Below, piece by piece: positions 20,991 to 30,006 of a stretch of DNA of 64,000 nt. The position numbers and the translations under genes are program-made. Numbering within the stretch: position 1 is the stretch's first letter; each line of letters starts with the position of its first letter. The notes under the pieces were generated by a model. The model ran no database searches and had not been told where the DNA came from. It worked only from the letters and a program-made list of their open reading frames with translations. The stretch comes from Noviherbaspirillum saxi. GTDB taxonomy: Bacteria > Pseudomonadota > Gammaproteobacteria > Burkholderiales > Burkholderiaceae_D. The DNA lies in contig NZ_QYUO01000001.1 in the NCBI RefSeq assembly GCF_003591035.1, forward strand, positions 2,790,001 through 2,854,000, given 5' to 3'.

Positions 20991-21006
20991 AGCAGATCGC
21001 GTGCCA
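20991..21006 (-). promoter_or_regulatory. Sigma-54 promoter of nirB
   Basis: The minus strand reads TGGCACGCGATCTGCT, matching the -24/-12 consensus TGGCACG-N4-TTGC except for one base in the -12 element. GG and GC have the correct spacing. The predicted start near 20980 gives a leader of about 50 nt. In that leader GGCTTC/GAAGCC close a six-base loop AATGGC (20951-20968). Confidence 0.7.
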
Positions 21007-21046
21007 TAGAGGAAACAGCAAAAACGCACTGTGATGACAACGCGGA

Positions 21047-21063
21047 TGCACCTGTCCGGTGCA
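21047..21063. promoter_or_regulatory. NtrC-type binding site between nirB and narK
   Basis: TGCACC-N5-GGTGCA is a perfect palindrome that matches the NtrC consensus (GCAC-N7-GTGC). It lies about 40 bp above the nirB sigma-54 promoter and about 80 bp above the narK one, and may serve both as an enhancer. An imperfect inverted GGTGC-GCACC sequence follows at 21090-21102. Confidence 0.7.
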
Positions 21064-21144
21064 TCGCGGGCGACGTTACTGCGCTTATAGGTGCGCTGCA
21101 CCATTCAGATCTCTTTATTCGGGGGCATTTCCGCTCAAAACCAG

Positions 21145-21160
21145 TGGCATGGCGCTTGCA
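21145..21160 (+). promoter_or_regulatory. Sigma-54 promoter of narK
   Basis: TGGCATGGCGCTTGCA fits TGGCACG-N4-TTGCA with one mismatch. The predicted start near 21171 lies about 33 nt before the GTG start of narK. Confidence 0.7.
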
Positions 21161-24289: not shown

Positions 24290-25778
24290 GTGACTGTTCA
24301 GCGCCTATGGGCGCAATAAAGCAGTTGTAAACGATGCCCAACCTGTGCATCATGCTGACATGGCAAAAAAACAACCTGCTCCCGACCTTTCCGGCCTCAG
24401 CCATGAGGAGAAGGACATCCTCATCTTGACGCTGCTGGCGCGTCTGGATGCGCTTGAGTCAAAGATGCGTAAGGACAGTCACAATTCGAGTAGACCTCCG
24501 TCATCCGATGGCTTGACCAAGAAGACGAACTCGCTGCGAGAATCTTCTGGCAAGCCCCCTGGCGGCCAAGCCGGACACAAGGGAACGACTCTCAAGCGGG
24601 AGCAGCCGACCCAGACCATCGATCATCCTTTGCCGGGGCAATGCGACCGTTGCCATGGTGCATTGCCGTTGGCCGAGGCCCGCGTGGCCGAGTGCAGGCA
24701 AGTGCTCGATGTGCCTGCGGCGGCGTTCGATGTCATCGAGCACCGTACATTGGCGCTGGTGTGTCGGTGCGGGCAATCGCATGTGAGTGCCTTTCCCGCC
24801 GGTGTGACCGAGATGGTGCAATATGGCCCGAACGTGAAAGCGCTGGGTGCCCATCTGACCCAGGGTCAAATGCTGCCCTATGCGCGCGCCGCCGAACTGA
24901 TTCAAGATGTGTATGGCCTGTGCATATCGCCCGGCACGCTGGTGTCGTGGGTGGGCGAGGCAAGCGTCGCCTTACAGGGCACCGCCGATCGCATCGCCGA
25001 ATACCTGCGCAATGCGCCGCTGCTCCATGCCGACGAGTCTGGTCTGCGCGTTGCCAGCAAGCTGCATTGGTTGCATATCGCGGCCAGCGGCACCTTGACC
25101 TGGTACGGCGTACATGCCAAACGCGGCCTGGAAGCGATGCACGCGCATGGCATTCTGCCCAGGCGCATAGGCATATTGGTTCACGACTGCTGGGCGCCAT
25201 ACTGGCGGCTCGACGGCAGCATCCATGCCCTGTGCAATGCGCATCTTCTACGCGAGCTGGTGTACGTGAAAGAAATCACCGGACAGGAATGGCCACAGTC
25301 GATGACGGATTTCCTGCTCAATGCCAACAAGCTATGCGAGGCGGCGCGACAAAAGCAGCGCAAGTTCAGCACCAGGGAAATCGCCGCCTTCCGGACGATT
25401 TACGATGCGATCGTAGCCGAAGGCGAACAGCTCAATCCCGAAGCGAACCAGTCGGTCAACAAACGTGGCCGCGCCAAGCAGTCCATTGCATTCAATTTGC
25501 TGCGGCGCTTGCGTCAACATGCCGATGCGGTGCTGCTCTTCATCAGCAACCTTGCCGTCCCGTTCACCAACAACGTTGGTGAGCGTGCCGTGCGCATGCC
25601 CAAAGTGAAGCAGAAAATCTCCGGCTGCTTTCGCACCGTCGTCGGCGCCGAAAATTTCTGCGTCATCCGCTCCTGTCTCGACACGCTTCGCAAGCAAGGC
25701 CACCGTATGCTCGACGTACTGCAACGCGCCTTCCATGGAAACCCTATCCAAGTCTTCGCGTAGCTGCTGAACAGTCAC
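24290..25778 (+). mobile_element. Complete IS66-family element with single transposase gene
   Basis: A 1,489-bp element. It starts GTGACTGTTCAGC (24290-24302) and ends with the exact inverted repeat (25766-25778). It is flanked by a perfect 8-bp direct repeat GATAATTA (24282-24289 and 25779-25786), the target duplication length of the IS66 family. Only the large transposase gene is present, with no TnpA/TnpB genes, as in the ISBst12-like subgroup. It sits between the convergent kinase and nrtD genes and breaks neither. The intact repeats suggest a recent insertion. Confidence 0.92.
24360..25763 (+). CDS. IS66-family transposase
   Basis: 467 residues from ATG 24360 (MAKKQPAPDLSGLSHEEK). The N-terminal coiled/leucine-rich part is followed by NSSRPPSSDGL and the GGQAGHKG segment typical of IS66 TnpC. 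A zinc-finger-like part comes next (CDRCHGAL with CRCGQ). The DDE catalytic core has LHADESGLRV, VHDCWAPYW and a glutamate in NNVGERAVRMPKVKQKISG. The gene fills the whole element. No stop or frameshift is seen, so it is probably active. Confidence 0.93.
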   Translation: MAKKQPAPDLSGLSHEEKDILILTLLARLDALESKMRKDSHNSSRPPSSDGLTKKTNSLRESSGKPPGGQAGHKGTTLKREQPTQTIDHPLPGQCDRCHGALPLAEARVAECRQVLDVPAAAFDVIEHRTLALVCRCGQSHVSAFPAGVTEMVQYGPNVKALGAHLTQGQMLPYARAAELIQDVYGLCISPGTLVSWVGEASVALQGTADRIAEYLRNAPLLHADESGLRVASKLHWLHIAASGTLTWYGVHAKRGLEAMHAHGILPRRIGILVHDCWAPYWRLDGSIHALCNAHLLRELVYVKEITGQEWPQSMTDFLLNANKLCEAARQKQRKFSTREIAAFRTIYDAIVAEGEQLNPEANQSVNKRGRAKQSIAFNLLRRLRQHADAVLLFISNLAVPFTNNVGERAVRMPKVKQKISGCFRTVVGAENFCVIRSCLDTLRKQGHRMLDVLQRAFHGNPIQVFA

Positions 25779-25995: not shown

Positions 25996-26805
25996 TTACG
26001 CCGCTTCCTTCACCGGATGCGCCTGCCGGTGATACAGAAATTCCAGCACCGCACTCCGATACTCGATATACAGCGCATCATGCGCCAGCGCCACGCGGTC
26101 GCGCGGACGGTCCAGGCGCACGTTGACGATATCGCCGATGGTTGCGGCCGGACCATTGGTCATCATGACGATCCGATCCGACAGCAGCACTGCTTCATCG
26201 ACATCATGCGTGACCATGACCACGGTCGAGTGGGTCTTCGCAACGATCTTCAGCAACTCATCCTGCAGATGCGCGCGGGTCAATGCATCCAGCGCACCGA
26301 AGGGTTCATCCATCAGCAAGACCTTGGGTTCCATCGACAGCGCACGCGCGATACCCACACGTTGCTTCATGCCGCCCGAGATTTCATTCGGACGCTTTTG
26401 CTCTGCATGCGACAAGCCGACCAGCGCCAGCGCGGCCAGGGTACGCTCCTTCAGCTTGGTCTTGCTTTCGGTTGAGCCAAACACCCGTTCCACCGCCAGG
26501 TGCACGTTTTCATAGCACGTCAGCCATGGCAGCAGCGAGTGGTTCTGGAACACCACGGCGCGTTCCGGCGCCGGTCCGGCAATCTCGCGATTGGCGCACA
26601 GCAGCGCGCCGTCGCTGGCGCGCAGCAGTCCTGCAATCAGATTGAGCAGGGTCGACTTGCCACAACCGGAGTGCCCGATCAGCGTAACGAACTCGCCCTT
26701 CCTGACCGTCAGGTTAATGTCGCGCAGCGCATGGAACCTGCCCTGCTTGGTGTTGAACACCATTTCGGCGTTCTGGATATCGATGAATTTGCTGTTGTTG
26801 TCCAT
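25996..26805 (-). CDS. nrtD: Nitrate ABC transporter, ATP-binding protein
   Basis: 269 residues from ATG 26805. Walker A is GHSGCGKST, the signature is SGGMKQR, Walker B is VLLMDEPFGALD, and the H-loop is VTHDVDEA, so the ATPase is complete. The QNHSLLPWLTCYENVHLAV segment is typical of the nitrate/sulfonate/taurine subfamily (NrtD/TauB). It powers import through NrtB. It is the last gene of nrtA-nrtB-nrtD. There is no NrtC-type fusion domain, so the transporter has one kind of ATPase subunit. Confidence 0.92.
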   Translation of the reverse strand: MDNNSKFIDIQNAEMVFNTKQGRFHALRDINLTVRKGEFVTLIGHSGCGKSTLLNLIAGLLRASDGALLCANREIAGPAPERAVVFQNHSLLPWLTCYENVHLAVERVFGSTESKTKLKERTLAALALVGLSHAEQKRPNEISGGMKQRVGIARALSMEPKVLLMDEPFGALDALTRAHLQDELLKIVAKTHSTVVMVTHDVDEAVLLSDRIVMMTNGPAATIGDIVNVRLDRPRDRVALAHDALYIEYRSAVLEFLYHRQAHPVKEAA

Positions 26806-26823
26806 GATGTTTTCCAATGCCGG

Positions 26824-27741
26824 TTAGCTGCGTACTTCTTCGTAGGTGAATGCCTTTGCGAGGGCGACCAGCGCCTGTTCCAGCAGCAAGCCGACAACGC
26901 CGATGACGACAATCGCAATGATGATGTGCGGCACGTTGAGGTTGTTCCACTCATCCCACACCCAGAACCCGATGCCCACGCCGCCGGTCAGCATTTCTGC
27001 CGCGACGATCACCAGCCATGCGGTCCCGATCGCCAAACGCACGCCGGTCAGCATGTACGGCAATACCGAGGGAAACAGAATCTTGGTGACGATCTTCCAT
27101 TCGGACAGATTCAGCACCTTGGCGACGTTCATGTAATCCTGCGGGACGCGCTGCACGCCGACCGCGGTATTGATGATCATCGGCCAGATCGAACAGATGA
27201 AGATCGCCCAGATCGCGGCGGGATTGGCGGCCTTGAATACCAGCAGGCCGATCGGCAGCCAGGCCAGCGGCGACACCGGCTTCAGCAGGCTGACGATGGG
27301 ATTGAACATGCCTGCCAAAAACTTGAAGCGCCCGATCATGAAACCCAGCGGAATGCCGATTGCCGCCGCCAGGCCGAACCCGGTCGCCACGCGCTGCAGC
27401 GACAACAGCAGATTCCAGCCTATGCCCTGGTCATTCGGTCCTTTTTGATAGAAGGGATCGGAAAACACATGAATCGCTTCCTGCAAGGTCACCATGGGCG
27501 ACGGGAAGCCGCTGTTTTTGGCGGCAACGATTTCCCACACCAGCACCAGCAGCGCGAGACCGAAAATCGGCGGCAGCACGGCCAGGAAGAAAGGTTTGAA
27601 CGACAGCTTTCTTGCCGCCGGCTTTGCCGCGGTTACGGATGGGCGCGCCTTCGCGTGCTCCTTGGTGTCGGCTTTCATCGGCGGCGACTCCGAGACCGGC
27701 TCTACCGGTGTGTTGAGGACATTGTTCATGACTGCGCTCAT
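26824..27741 (-). CDS. nrtB: Nitrate ABC transporter, permease
   Basis: 305 residues. After a charged N-terminal tail (about 45 residues) come six predicted membrane spans and the BPD_transp_1 core. The cytoplasmic EAA-like loop reads AKVLNLSEWKIVTKILFPSVLPYMLTG (about residues 207-233 as the key span). Length and motifs fit NrtB of nitrate/nitrite transporters. It lies 18 bp before nrtD and 21 bp after nrtA. Confidence 0.92.
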   Translation of the reverse strand: MSAVMNNVLNTPVEPVSESPPMKADTKEHAKARPSVTAAKPAARKLSFKPFFLAVLPPIFGLALLVLVWEIVAAKNSGFPSPMVTLQEAIHVFSDPFYQKGPNDQGIGWNLLLSLQRVATGFGLAAAIGIPLGFMIGRFKFLAGMFNPIVSLLKPVSPLAWLPIGLLVFKAANPAAIWAIFICSIWPMIINTAVGVQRVPQDYMNVAKVLNLSEWKIVTKILFPSVLPYMLTGVRLAIGTAWLVIVAAEMLTGGVGIGFWVWDEWNNLNVPHIIIAIVVIGVVGLLLEQALVALAKAFTYEEVRS

Positions 27742-27762: not shown

Positions 27763-29013
27763 TCAGGCTTTGATCTTGAAGGATTCGGCATAGGCTTTCG
27801 GGTTCTTGCCGTCCCAGACCGTGCCGTCGATCAGCTTCGACGTGCGCATCGGATCTTTCGGCAAGCTCACCTTGGCCATGTTTGCCGCTTCCTTGTAAAG
27901 GTCGATCTGATTGATCTGCCTGGCGACCGCAAGATAGTCGACATCTTCCTTGAGCAAACCCCAACGCTTGTGCTGGGTCAGGAACCACATGCCGTCGGAC
28001 AGGTACGGAAAGTTCACCGCGCCGTCGTTGTAGAACTTCATGTAGTTCGGATCATCCCAGGTCTTGCCCAGGCCATTCGAGTAGCGGCCGAGAATGCGCT
28101 GGTTGATGACGTCGACCGAGGTATTCACATACGACTTGTCGGCGATGGTTTCAGCCATCTTGTTCTTGTTGGACAGGCTGGCGTCGATCCACTTGCCGGC
28201 TTCCAGCACCGCAGCCGTCATCGCGCGTGCCGTGTTCGGATACTTCTTGACGAAGTCCGCAGTGGTACCGAGCACCTTTTCCGGATGGTCTTTCCAGATG
28301 TCCTGCGTGGTCACGCCGGTGATGCCGATACCGTCGGCGATCGCACGATGGCCCCATGGCTCGCCCACGCAATAGCCATCCATGTTGCCGACCCGCATGT
28401 TGGCCACCATTTGCGGCGGCGGCACGGTAATGATCTTTGCATCCTTCATCGGATTGATGCCATGCGCGGCCATCCAGTAGTACAGCCACATTGCGTGGGT
28501 GCCGGTCGGGAAGGTTTGCGCGAACGTGTATTCGCGCTTGTCGGTCTGCATCAGCTTGGCAAGCGATGCGCCGTCGACCGCTCCCTTGTCGGACAGCTTT
28601 TTCGACAGTGTGATCGCCTGGCCATTGTTGTTCAGTGTCATCAGCATCGCCATGTCCTTCTTCGGGCCGCTGACACCGAGGTGTACGCCGTAGATCAAGC
28701 CGTACAGCACATGTGCTGCATCGAGTTCGCCATTGACCAATTTGTCGCGTACGCCTGCCCACGAAGCTTCCTTGGTGGGTGTGATCTTGATGCCATATTT
28801 CTTGTCGATGCCGAGTACCGATGCCATGACGACCGAGGCGCAATCGGTCAATGGAATGAAGCCAATCTTGACCTCTTCCTTTTCCGGCTTATCGGAACCG
28901 GCAGCCCATGCACCCTGAGTGGCCAATCCACCGAATGCGCCGGCTGTTACTGCTGCGCCCGCCTTGATGATGCTGCGGCGGGTCAAATTTGTTTTGCTTT
29001 CTTTTGTTGTCAT
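27763..29013 (-). CDS. nrtA: Nitrate ABC transporter, substrate-binding protein
   Basis: 416 residues from ATG 29013, preceded by GAGGAAATC. The N-terminus carries a twin-arginine signal (NLTRRSIIKAGAAVTAGAFG), so the protein is likely exported folded by Tat. The body matches NrtA-type binding proteins (KIGFIPLTDCASVVMASVLG, GLIYGVHLGVSGPKKDMA, DGYCVGEPWGHRAIADGIG). It captures nitrate in the periplasm for NrtB and NrtD. The gene lies behind a sigma-54 promoter and an ANTAR-type leader (29044-29167). Confidence 0.93.
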   Translation of the reverse strand: MTTKESKTNLTRRSIIKAGAAVTAGAFGGLATQGAWAAGSDKPEKEEVKIGFIPLTDCASVVMASVLGIDKKYGIKITPTKEASWAGVRDKLVNGELDAAHVLYGLIYGVHLGVSGPKKDMAMLMTLNNNGQAITLSKKLSDKGAVDGASLAKLMQTDKREYTFAQTFPTGTHAMWLYYWMAAHGINPMKDAKIITVPPPQMVANMRVGNMDGYCVGEPWGHRAIADGIGITGVTTQDIWKDHPEKVLGTTADFVKKYPNTARAMTAAVLEAGKWIDASLSNKNKMAETIADKSYVNTSVDVINQRILGRYSNGLGKTWDDPNYMKFYNDGAVNFPYLSDGMWFLTQHKRWGLLKEDVDYLAVARQINQIDLYKEAANMAKVSLPKDPMRTSKLIDGTVWDGKNPKAYAESFKIKA

Positions 29014-29043: not shown

Positions 29044-29098
29044 AAAAAGAAAGGCGTCCGGTCACAGCAAGCCAAGCTCGCGGTGAACGGACGCCTTT
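29044..29098 (-). terminator. Leader terminator upstream of nrtA
   Basis: An 11-bp stem (29050-29060 with 29088-29098), extended by partial pairing of 29061-29065 with 29083-29086. On the minus strand it is followed by CTTTTT (29044-29049). It lies 30 nt before the nrtA start, inside the leader, so it should stop transcription unless antiterminated. Confidence 0.8.
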
Positions 29099-29167
29099 GT
29101 CCAAAAACGAGATGACCATCTTTGGTCAGCTCGTTGTTACTGATCGGTGCGCCAGCATTGGCGCGCC
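29044..29167 (-). ncRNA. ANTAR-target leader RNA of nrtABD (two hexaloop hairpins plus terminator)
   Basis: On the minus strand the first hairpin has a GCGCC/GGCGC stem (29149-29153 with 29160-29164) and loop AATGCT (29154-29159). The second has TGACC/GGTCA (29113-29117 with 29124-29128), loop AAAGAT (29118-29123), and an outer CTCGT/ACGAG extension. Both six-base loops carry A at position 1 and G at position 4, the hallmark of ANTAR RNA targets. They are about 20 nt apart and are followed by an intrinsic terminator. NasT is encoded just upstream, so antitermination by NasT is the natural model. Confidence 0.8.
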
Positions 29168-29177
29168 AGTATCGTTT

Positions 29178-29192
29178 GCAAGCCCTGTGCCA
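29178..29192 (-). promoter_or_regulatory. Sigma-54 promoter of nrtABD
   Basis: The minus strand reads TGGCACAGGGCTTGC, a near-perfect -24/-12 promoter. The expected start point is around 29166-29168, exactly at the 5' base of the first ANTAR hairpin. Confidence 0.8.
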
Positions 29193-29243
29193 ACCCGGAA
29201 TTCAAACTTGGTACCGGATTTGATCCAGATCAGGCCCGGTTTC

Positions 29244-29258
29244 GCACCCGGATTGTGC
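29244..29258. promoter_or_regulatory. Candidate NtrC site upstream of nrtA
   Basis: GCAC-N7-GTGC, the NtrC core pattern, about 50 bp upstream of the -24 element. The inner bases are less symmetric than in the nirB-narK site. Confidence 0.55.
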
Positions 29259-29313
29259 GGCGCATTAAATCAGGGCGGAGCGCGTCACAATTCGGGGCCC
29301 GGTCTTAGCGCAC

Positions 29314-29937
29314 TTACAAGAGCAGATCGGCAACATCGATCATGCGCTGCGCCACTTCGGACAACTTGAGGTTCTTGTCCATCGCCAGACGGCGCAGCTT
29401 GCGATAGGCATCGTCTTCCGAGCAGTGATGCCTTTCCATCAACAAACCTTTGGCGCGCTCGATCACCTTGCGCTCGGCCAGCTTGATCTTGGTTTCCGAG
29501 AGCTCGTGCCGCAATTTCTGGTCGACTTCAAAGCGCGCAAGCGCAACGTCCAGCACGGTCTTGACGCGTTCGGCCGACAATCCCGCGACGACATAGGCCG
29601 ATACGCCGGCTTCTATCGCGGCATGCATCTTTTCCTTGTCATTGTCTTCAGTGAAGCAGACGATGGGGCGGCGCTCATTGGCGGTCGCGGCAACGACCTT
29701 CTTCAATGCCGCATCGGATTGTTCATCGACGATAATCACGTCGGGCTGCAGCTGCGCGATCTGTTCTTCCAGATCGGCGTCCGGCGGCAGCGCGGCCAGG
29801 ATGTTATAGCCGCCTTCCAGCAATCCTATGCGCAGCGCCCGGGCACGCTCGGCCTGGACCTGCGCGGCGACGTCGGCCCCTTCGGGCACGACTAATGAGT
29901 TGATTACGACGATTTTCAGCTGTTTGGGATCGCTCAT
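29314..29937 (-). CDS. nasT: NasT-type response regulator with ANTAR RNA-binding domain
   Basis: 207 residues from ATG 29937 (MSDPKQLKIVVIN), with AGG upstream. Residues about 1-135 are receiver-like; the usual N-terminal acidic pair is replaced (VVINSL), while an aspartate remains at the phospho-acceptor place (DVIIVDEQSD). The C-terminal 60 residues are an ANTAR domain (KLAERKVIERAKGLLMERHHCSEDDAYRKLRRLA in sense, about residues 148-182). NasT proteins bind leader RNAs and prevent termination when nitrate is present; in known systems NasS holds NasT inactive without nitrate. No NasS gene is seen in this window. Confidence 0.9.
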   Translation of the reverse strand: MSDPKQLKIVVINSLVVPEGADVAAQVQAERARALRIGLLEGGYNILAALPPDADLEEQIAQLQPDVIIVDEQSDAALKKVVAATANERRPIVCFTEDNDKEKMHAAIEAGVSAYVVAGLSAERVKTVLDVALARFEVDQKLRHELSETKIKLAERKVIERAKGLLMERHHCSEDDAYRKLRRLAMDKNLKLSEVAQRMIDVADLLL

Positions 29938-30006
29938 GATTAGCCTGTGATGGACTTCCATTAAAATAGAGCTTTGCAAGAACCTTGCCATCCTTCACTT
30001 CCCTTC

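Follow-up and report, generated by a model that had tools for sequence, protein, structure and literature searches.

The nrtABC operon of Noviherbaspirillum saxi, encoding a nitrate ABC transporter, is very probably preceded by a sigma54 promoter that feeds into an ANTAR-type leader RNA. Within this leader we identified three hairpins, named P0, P1 and P2 in order of transcription, each with a six-base loop that has A at position 1 and G at position 4 (A1/G4); this three-hexaloop form is a variant of the ANTAR leader that we did not see described in the literature consulted. Judging from the sequence and its relatives, the element is probably a NasT-controlled antitermination leader of nrtABC in which P0 serves as an added recruitment hairpin. 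Throughout, the window denotes the whole 64,000-nucleotide stretch of DNA that was analysed.

On the minus strand of the window, the order is nasT, sigma54 box, leader, terminator and nrtABC. The transporter genes, all on this strand, are nrtA (27763..29013), for the binding protein, with a Tat-type signal recognised by eye (TRRSIIK...AWAAG); nrtB (26824..27741), for the permease (TIGR01183, 249 bits, cut-off 209); and nrtC/D (25996..26817), for the ATPase (TIGR01184, 330 bits, cut-off 292). The likely start of nrtA is the ATG at 29013, with GAGGAA just before it. Among the matches listed, the named proteins closest to NrtA come mostly from Oxalobacteraceae and Burkholderiales MAGs (81-90%). 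Between nrtC/D and a gene encoding a fused PP2C phosphatase/protein kinase stands an IS66-family transposase gene (24345-25763).

Immediately upstream of the leader lies nasT (29314..29937, minus strand; likely start ATG at 29937), which encodes a response-regulator-like protein combining a receiver-like part with an ANTAR domain (Pfam E 1e-22). NasT matches EutV (6wsh, E 5e-18) and the ANTAR domain of NasR (4akk), and it keeps the EutV RNA contacts R142, K143, K149, E160, Y164 and M172, with K147 replaced by R, as read from an alignment in which the chain numbers are shifted by 2. The hexaloops of the leader, in turn, match the NasR SELEX consensus and the EutV mutational data. The receiver-like part has an Asp at the position of the EutV phospho-acceptor, but it lacks the customary Lys (VVAGL in place of LVKPL) and shows no acidic pair near its beginning, and phosphorylation of NasT therefore looks unlikely. 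The genome also encodes a second ANTAR protein, a stand-alone protein of 98 aa whose gene adjoins one for a PAS sensor (L002 1435-1731, C1:3305299-3305451).

The sigma54 -24/-12 box TGGCACAGGGCTTGCA (29177..29192, minus strand) agrees with the consensus at 11 of 12 positions and has its GG and GC 12 nt apart; rpoN is present in the genome. Exact matches to TGGCAYNNNNNTTGCW occur twice in the 64 kb against 0.31 expected, a count reached in 2 of 100 shuffles, and the second of them stands in front of narK. At a stringency of one mismatch, the window holds 8 sites against 3.65 expected; boxes of this kind are found before nirB (21006-20991) and, as TGGCAAGGTTCTTGCA (29975..29990, minus strand), before nasT, where the match is weak when taken alone. 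Transcription is predicted to start at about 29166, at the base of P0. Farther upstream, 67 nt from the -24 T, an NtrC-like dyad CGCACAATCCGGGTGCG (29243..29259, minus strand) agrees at 9 of 12 positions. At 15 of 20 related loci, such a dyad is placed 67-69 nt ahead of the -24 T, counting the two best sites per locus by their fit to the NtrC consensus, and a score of at least 9/12 is reached in 12 of the 20, versus 2.1 in shuffles that keep mononucleotide composition only. The spacer of the NtrC consensus is 5; with a spacer of 6 or 7, 9/12 was also reached, in 6 and 5 loci. Promoters of NasT-type genes from beta- and gammaproteobacteria are also among the predictions of a published sigma54 survey (PMC12316311).

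The leader begins, at the predicted 5' end of the transcript, with P0 (29146..29167; all leader features are on the minus strand), whose core is GCGCC-AATGCT-GGCGC (29164-29149) and whose A1/G4 loop AATGCT (29159-29154) is closed by a C:G pair. P1 (29107..29134) has the A1/G4 loop AAAGAT (29123-29118), again with C:G closure, and P2 (GGAC-AAAGGC-GTCC, 29089..29102), also with an A1/G4 loop, overlaps the 5' arm of an intrinsic terminator (29044..29098; arms 29098-29088 and 29060-29050, U-tract 29052-29044). From the U-tract to the likely nrtA ATG there are 30 nt. For the leader, the predicted folding energy is -65.4 kcal/mol (z -7.86), a value reached by none of 200 shuffles, and the terminator hairpin is computed at -34.1 kcal/mol versus -4.0 for P2 alone. 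P2 and the terminator are predicted to be mutually exclusive, and both helices are kept across the 20 related loci. In known ANTAR leaders, as described in the sources cited, the second hairpin sits at the 5' arm of the terminator (PMC3369931, PMC7496416). Since P2 overlaps that arm here, P1/P2 is the canonical ANTAR pair, with P1 as the recruitment hairpin, and P0 is additional.

A preliminary description of this DNA had named a near-perfect -24/-12 promoter on the minus strand, a nasT gene immediately upstream, a terminator with a U-tract 30 nt before nrtA and two hairpins with the A1/G4 loops AATGCT and AAAGAT. The first three agree with what we find. Both loops are real as well, but they belong to P0 and P1 of three hairpins and do not form the antitermination pair, P2 having been missed. 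The broader proposal, a sigma54 promoter joined to an ANTAR leader under NasT, gains support from conservation, covariation, the co-occurrence of nasT and the match to the P11/NalA family, all read from sequence. An independent model, that of the Rfam family P11, aligns over the promoter, P1 and P2. It scores 32.3 bits, short of the gathering score of 70, at which it is not listed (E 2e-5 when 501 bases were searched, 0.0013 in 29.5 kb). Among the Rfam families, only P11 and narK RNA (RF03032, 23.1 bits at the leader, gathering score 43.2) came close. A mir-995 match (E 4.3) was dismissed as chance.

Our own models served for the wider searches: R1, which includes P0, and R2, which consists of P1, P2 and the terminator without P0. 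In the window, R1 detected the leader only, the next match being the opposite strand of the terminator (17.9 bits) and the rest scoring at most 11.2 bits; in the whole genome, R1 and R2 gave one match each, with filters strict enough to miss weaker matches. The divergent nirB and narK genes (window 20991-21160) each have a sigma54-like box. The window-wide R1 search found no ANTAR leader at nirB or narK, so NasT control in this genome seems to extend to nrtABC only.

For the analysis of conservation, we aligned 20 leaders, without structure, out of 30 nrtA loci (L003 and L005-L033). The loci left out were L012, L022-L025 and L027, which have a sigma54 box and no hairpins (L022 and L023 have less than 310 bases upstream), and the partial leaders L016, L017, L018 and L020. 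The A1/G4 loop is present in all 20 loci for P1 and for P2, and in 19 of 20 for P0, L015 having A4 instead; all closing pairs but one, a U:G in P2, are C:G. Both sides have changed in 4 of 6 pairs of P0 (88% of cells paired, the outermost pair formed in just 7 of 19 loci), in 7 of 9 pairs of P1 and in 3 of 11 pairs of the terminator. P2 has 97.5% of its cells paired and is nearly invariant, and thus offers no covariation of its own. The three-hairpin structure as a whole has 49 double-changed cells versus 16.7 in shuffles, with none of 500 as high, a comparison in which independence is overstated, as the loci are related and the shuffles keep the kinship in. Spacing is narrow as well, with loops 34.7 ± 1.1 nt apart from P0 to P1 (32-36) and 23.7 ± 1.0 nt from P1 to P2, and with 32.8 ± 0.8 nt between the sigma54 box and P0 (range 30-34, 33 in 14 of 20).

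On the grounds of covariation and spacing, we rejected P0 as a chance hairpin. Another reading takes P0 as a DNA palindrome near the start, for example a governor-type NtrC site or some other operator, and not as an RNA element. Some P0 stems (TGCGCC...GGCGCA) do resemble NtrC half-sites, and P0 is near +1, but its spacer is 6 and not the 5 of the consensus, on which ground an NtrC site was rejected. The stems, moreover, vary with compensation (GCGCC, GTGCC, TACC, GATC), and the loop is asymmetric (A1, A2, G4), a feature superfluous for a symmetric DNA dimer. We regard a DNA palindrome as very improbable.

A second sample consisted of named nrtA loci, the best 80 of at least 591, in which R2 located leaders in 58. 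A sigma54 box of at least 9/12 stands before all 58 (shuffle mean 4.0), of at least 10/12 before 56 (0.8 in shuffles) and of at least 11 before 48. With the limit for room set at 44 nt, a cut chosen after the distances were seen, 46 of these leaders have room for P0 and 12 do not; in 11 of the 12, the first hairpin is 33-44 nt from the -24 T. A P0 with an A1/G4 hexaloop and at least 4 pairs was found in 23 of the 46, a count that owes nothing to a P0-bearing model; in shuffles the mean was 0.73 and the largest 4 among 300, about 30-fold fewer. Of these hairpins, 21 are C:G closed, and all 23 stand 30-37 nt from the sigma54 box. In the other 23 of the 46, many of them from Comamonadaceae, the loop departs from A1/G4. 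A hexaloop stem with any loop is present at the place of P0 in 38 of the 46, versus 7.9 in shuffles. These loci, too, share ancestry, and the shuffles overstate their independence. Also within the best 80 of at least 591, and excluding seven loci with less than 1200 bases upstream, nasT is beside nrtA in 51 of 55 leader-bearing loci and in 10 of 18 leaderless ones.

Because the hexaloop stem outlasts A1/G4 in many leaders, the P0 stem may have a job besides NasT, and in those leaders a stem kept without its loop counts against a NasT role for P0. Nor is P0 generally required, given the 12 of 58 leaders without room for it and its absence from the P11/NalA consensus. These leaders would suit a reading in which the element is an ordinary two-hairpin ANTAR leader (P1/P2), with P0 stabilising the RNA at its 5' terminus and not being recognised by NasT. 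Three things speak for this: P0 stands where the transcript is predicted to begin, about 33 nt from the -24 box; its stem persists after the loss of A1/G4; and two-hairpin leaders occur in the same family. Against it, 19 of 20 P0 loops of the clade keep A1 and G4, all with C:G closure, A1/G4 loops are roughly 30 times commoner than in shuffles, and in another family P0 stands 34-35 nt from P1 without a recognisable sigma54 box. We consider this reading somewhat unlikely and retain P0 as an added recruitment hairpin.

R1 matched in 180 of 294 genomes of the family; as R1 includes P0, counts based on it lean towards P0. Among further R1 loci, P0 is present in 37 of 41 (misses L068, L070, L105 and L107) at 32-39 nt from the sigma54 box, which reaches at least 10/12 in 41 of 41. 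Some loci recur: L067 is the same as L010, and the named loci overlap the other set (for example, L164/L107, L196/L093 and L152/L020). In the genus itself, the leader is found in all 12 genomes having nrtA and in none of the 3 without it. Across the class, R2 matched in 45 of 369 genomes, from which 30 loci were taken; one is the window's own and the match of L124 is off the place examined, leaving 28 readable. P0 occurs in five of the 28, from three other families (L112, L121 and L123, of one genus, and L114 and L116), at 34-35 nt from P1 in four and 40 nt in one; no sigma54 box was found at these five loci. Four more (L117, L120, L132 and L135) have an upstream A1/G4 hexaloop at other distances and were excluded from the P0 count. 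In one family (f24), the leaders start just after the apparent end of nasT, as judged by eye, and lie ahead of an nrtA whose product has a Tat-type signal.

Several loci depart from the common arrangement. At L012, L024, L025 and L027, nrtA has a sigma54 box but lacks the entire switch: neither the hairpins nor, within 1.5 kb, nasT is present. L016, L017, L018 and L151 (the last, from Noviherbaspirillum suwonense, being the same locus as L017) keep the sigma54 box, P0 and nasT, and L016 and L018 keep P1 as well. A clear U-tract terminator is lacking from all of them, and either decay of the switch or a different action of NasT would account for this. Three-hairpin leaders also stand beside an NrtA/NasS-like gene (45-57% to NrtA) at L074, L076, L087, L091, L098 and L103, from several genera of the family, and at L138, L139 and L144 (the places of L076, L074 and L103) nasT is followed by the NasS-like gene, the leader, narK and nirB, in that order. 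It follows that P0 is tied neither to nrtA nor to the lack of NasS.

We propose that, under nitrogen limitation, phosphorylated NtrC and sigma54 would initiate nrtABC transcription at the base of P0, and that nasT would probably also be switched on, through its own sigma54-like box. If active NasT is absent, the terminator would form. Active NasT would dock on the emerging P0 and P1 and then pass to, or also occupy, P2; a P2 held by NasT would keep the 5' arm of the terminator unpaired, and polymerase would read into nrtABC. P0, transcribed first, would act as a second recruitment hairpin and give a longer window for NasT loading before the terminator is made. That NasT binds P0 is rather likely; that P0 acts by early loading we put forward with slightly more doubt than confidence.

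The scheme builds on the one proposed for EutV. There, a dimer is modelled to bind one hexaloop, P1, for recruitment and then to move to P2, and a linker 20 nt longer abolishes antitermination (PMC8934654). As the P0-P1 distance exceeds P1-P2, and a longer EutV linker has this effect, it may be that P0 does not work jointly with P1. The same source reports that a single hexaloop is enough for an ANTAR dimer and suggests that the EutX/Rli55 RNAs sequester EutV (PMC8934654), and one paper redefines the minimal ANTAR target as one hexaloop. By this precedent, and with P0 transcribed first, P0 could be a decoy or tuning site, where a NasT dimer on P0 (or P0-P1) is sequestered and the threshold for holding P2 is raised. 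We think this quite unlikely: one cis copy per transcript would titrate little, and all three spacings are narrow, which fits cooperation better. Although an ANTAR dimer reportedly binds a single hexaloop at any one time, a target needs two, for a reason argued from one system (PMC8934654). With natural leaders of one family that have three hexaloops, two, or a decayed first one, at narrow distances from a sigma54 box, the model of recruitment followed by handover is testable.

The preliminary description had further proposed an AND gate of nitrogen and nitrate. The nitrogen half has some support in the NtrC-like dyads and the nasT box. NasS, described as the sensor of the NasS-NasT pair (PMC3795266), was found neither in this genome nor in any of the 12 leader-bearing genomes of the genus, so the nitrate half is an assumption here. 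The query was a relative's NasS-like protein that has no signal peptide and adjoins nasT. Against 15 genomes of the genus, it gave one strong match in each of 12, always at NrtA, and four other matches at 23-27%. NrtA is 61% identical to this protein and carries a Tat-type signal. The genome's three further PF13379 proteins start with what, by eye, are Sec-type signal peptides.

With no NasS found in the genus, one may ask which signal NasT receives there. We see an even chance that the signal is not nitrate via NasS, NasT being instead constitutive, reading c-di-GMP, or held by, for example, a folded NrtA Tat precursor. The failure to find NasS in 12 of 12 genomes, the signal peptides of the remaining PF13379 proteins and the likeness of Tat-borne NrtA to a NasS-like protein point this way, as does c-di-GMP binding to NasT as reported in a review (PMC12830290); against this, a distant sensor could escape the searches, and some genomes are drafts. 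A combined version, a relay from P0 to P1 to P2 in which the 5'-end hexaloop would load NasT early and, without NasS, the NrtA Tat precursor folded in the cytoplasm would hold or release NasT, is a long shot; if true, the transporter would sense its own substrate before export.

Antitermination of nitrate genes by a sigma54 promoter and an ANTAR leader is already established, and the AND gate as such is not new. The closest family is P11 (RF00625), which we take to be the NalA leader of nirBD in P. aeruginosa / P. putida, and on whose antitermination the primary work is said to be that of Romeo (2012) and Nie (2024). Its consensus shares the A1/G4 hexaloops of P1 and P2 and GGACAAAGGCGUCC at the terminator, but is unpaired at the place of P0; the operon is nirBD, and NasS is present. 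The narK RNA (RF03032), by our reading of its alignment, likewise has a -24/-12-like box followed by two A1/G4 hexaloops and differs in having no P0. Read by eye, both consensuses place the box near the 5' end, and RF00625 and RF03032 look like one leader class held as two families that share no clan, with promoter DNA inside the models. For Pseudomonas NalA/nirBD, a review reports NtrC/sigma54 initiation together with NasT antitermination (PMC12830290).

In Klebsiella, Ntr control and NasR antitermination are reported for the nas genes (PMC5424462), and the nasF leader resembles ours in joining the two for nitrate assimilation through a two-hexaloop motif (PMC5424462, PMC7496416); NasR differs from the NasT described here, which has a receiver-like domain, in being a one-component, nitrate-binding NIT-ANTAR protein, and the hexaloops are two. 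The eut leaders share hexaloop recognition, the exclusivity of P2 and terminator and the model of recruitment followed by antitermination (PMC8934654), but have two hexaloops, a phosphorylation-driven EutV and ethanolamine as the subject. In Paracoccus denitrificans, NasT binds the nasA leader RNA with its hairpins HI and HII, and a chromosomal HI mutant does not grow on nitrate (PMC3795266, PMC5424462); there nasS is present and cotranscribed with nasT, and a third hexaloop is not described in the relevant passages. A genome search of 2012 reported ANTAR matches upstream of nitrate transporters and may include leaders of this clade with two hairpins (PMC3369931). In the portions of the ANTAR and nitrate antitermination literature consulted, we saw no three-hexaloop leader described, and PMC4679880, which mentions ANTAR and three hairpins, proved unrelated. 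The leader of nrtABC has the A1/G4 hexaloops, the terminator-exclusive second hairpin and the cognate ANTAR protein of the known leaders, and departs from them in the minor point of exactly two hexaloops, having three, which are conserved.
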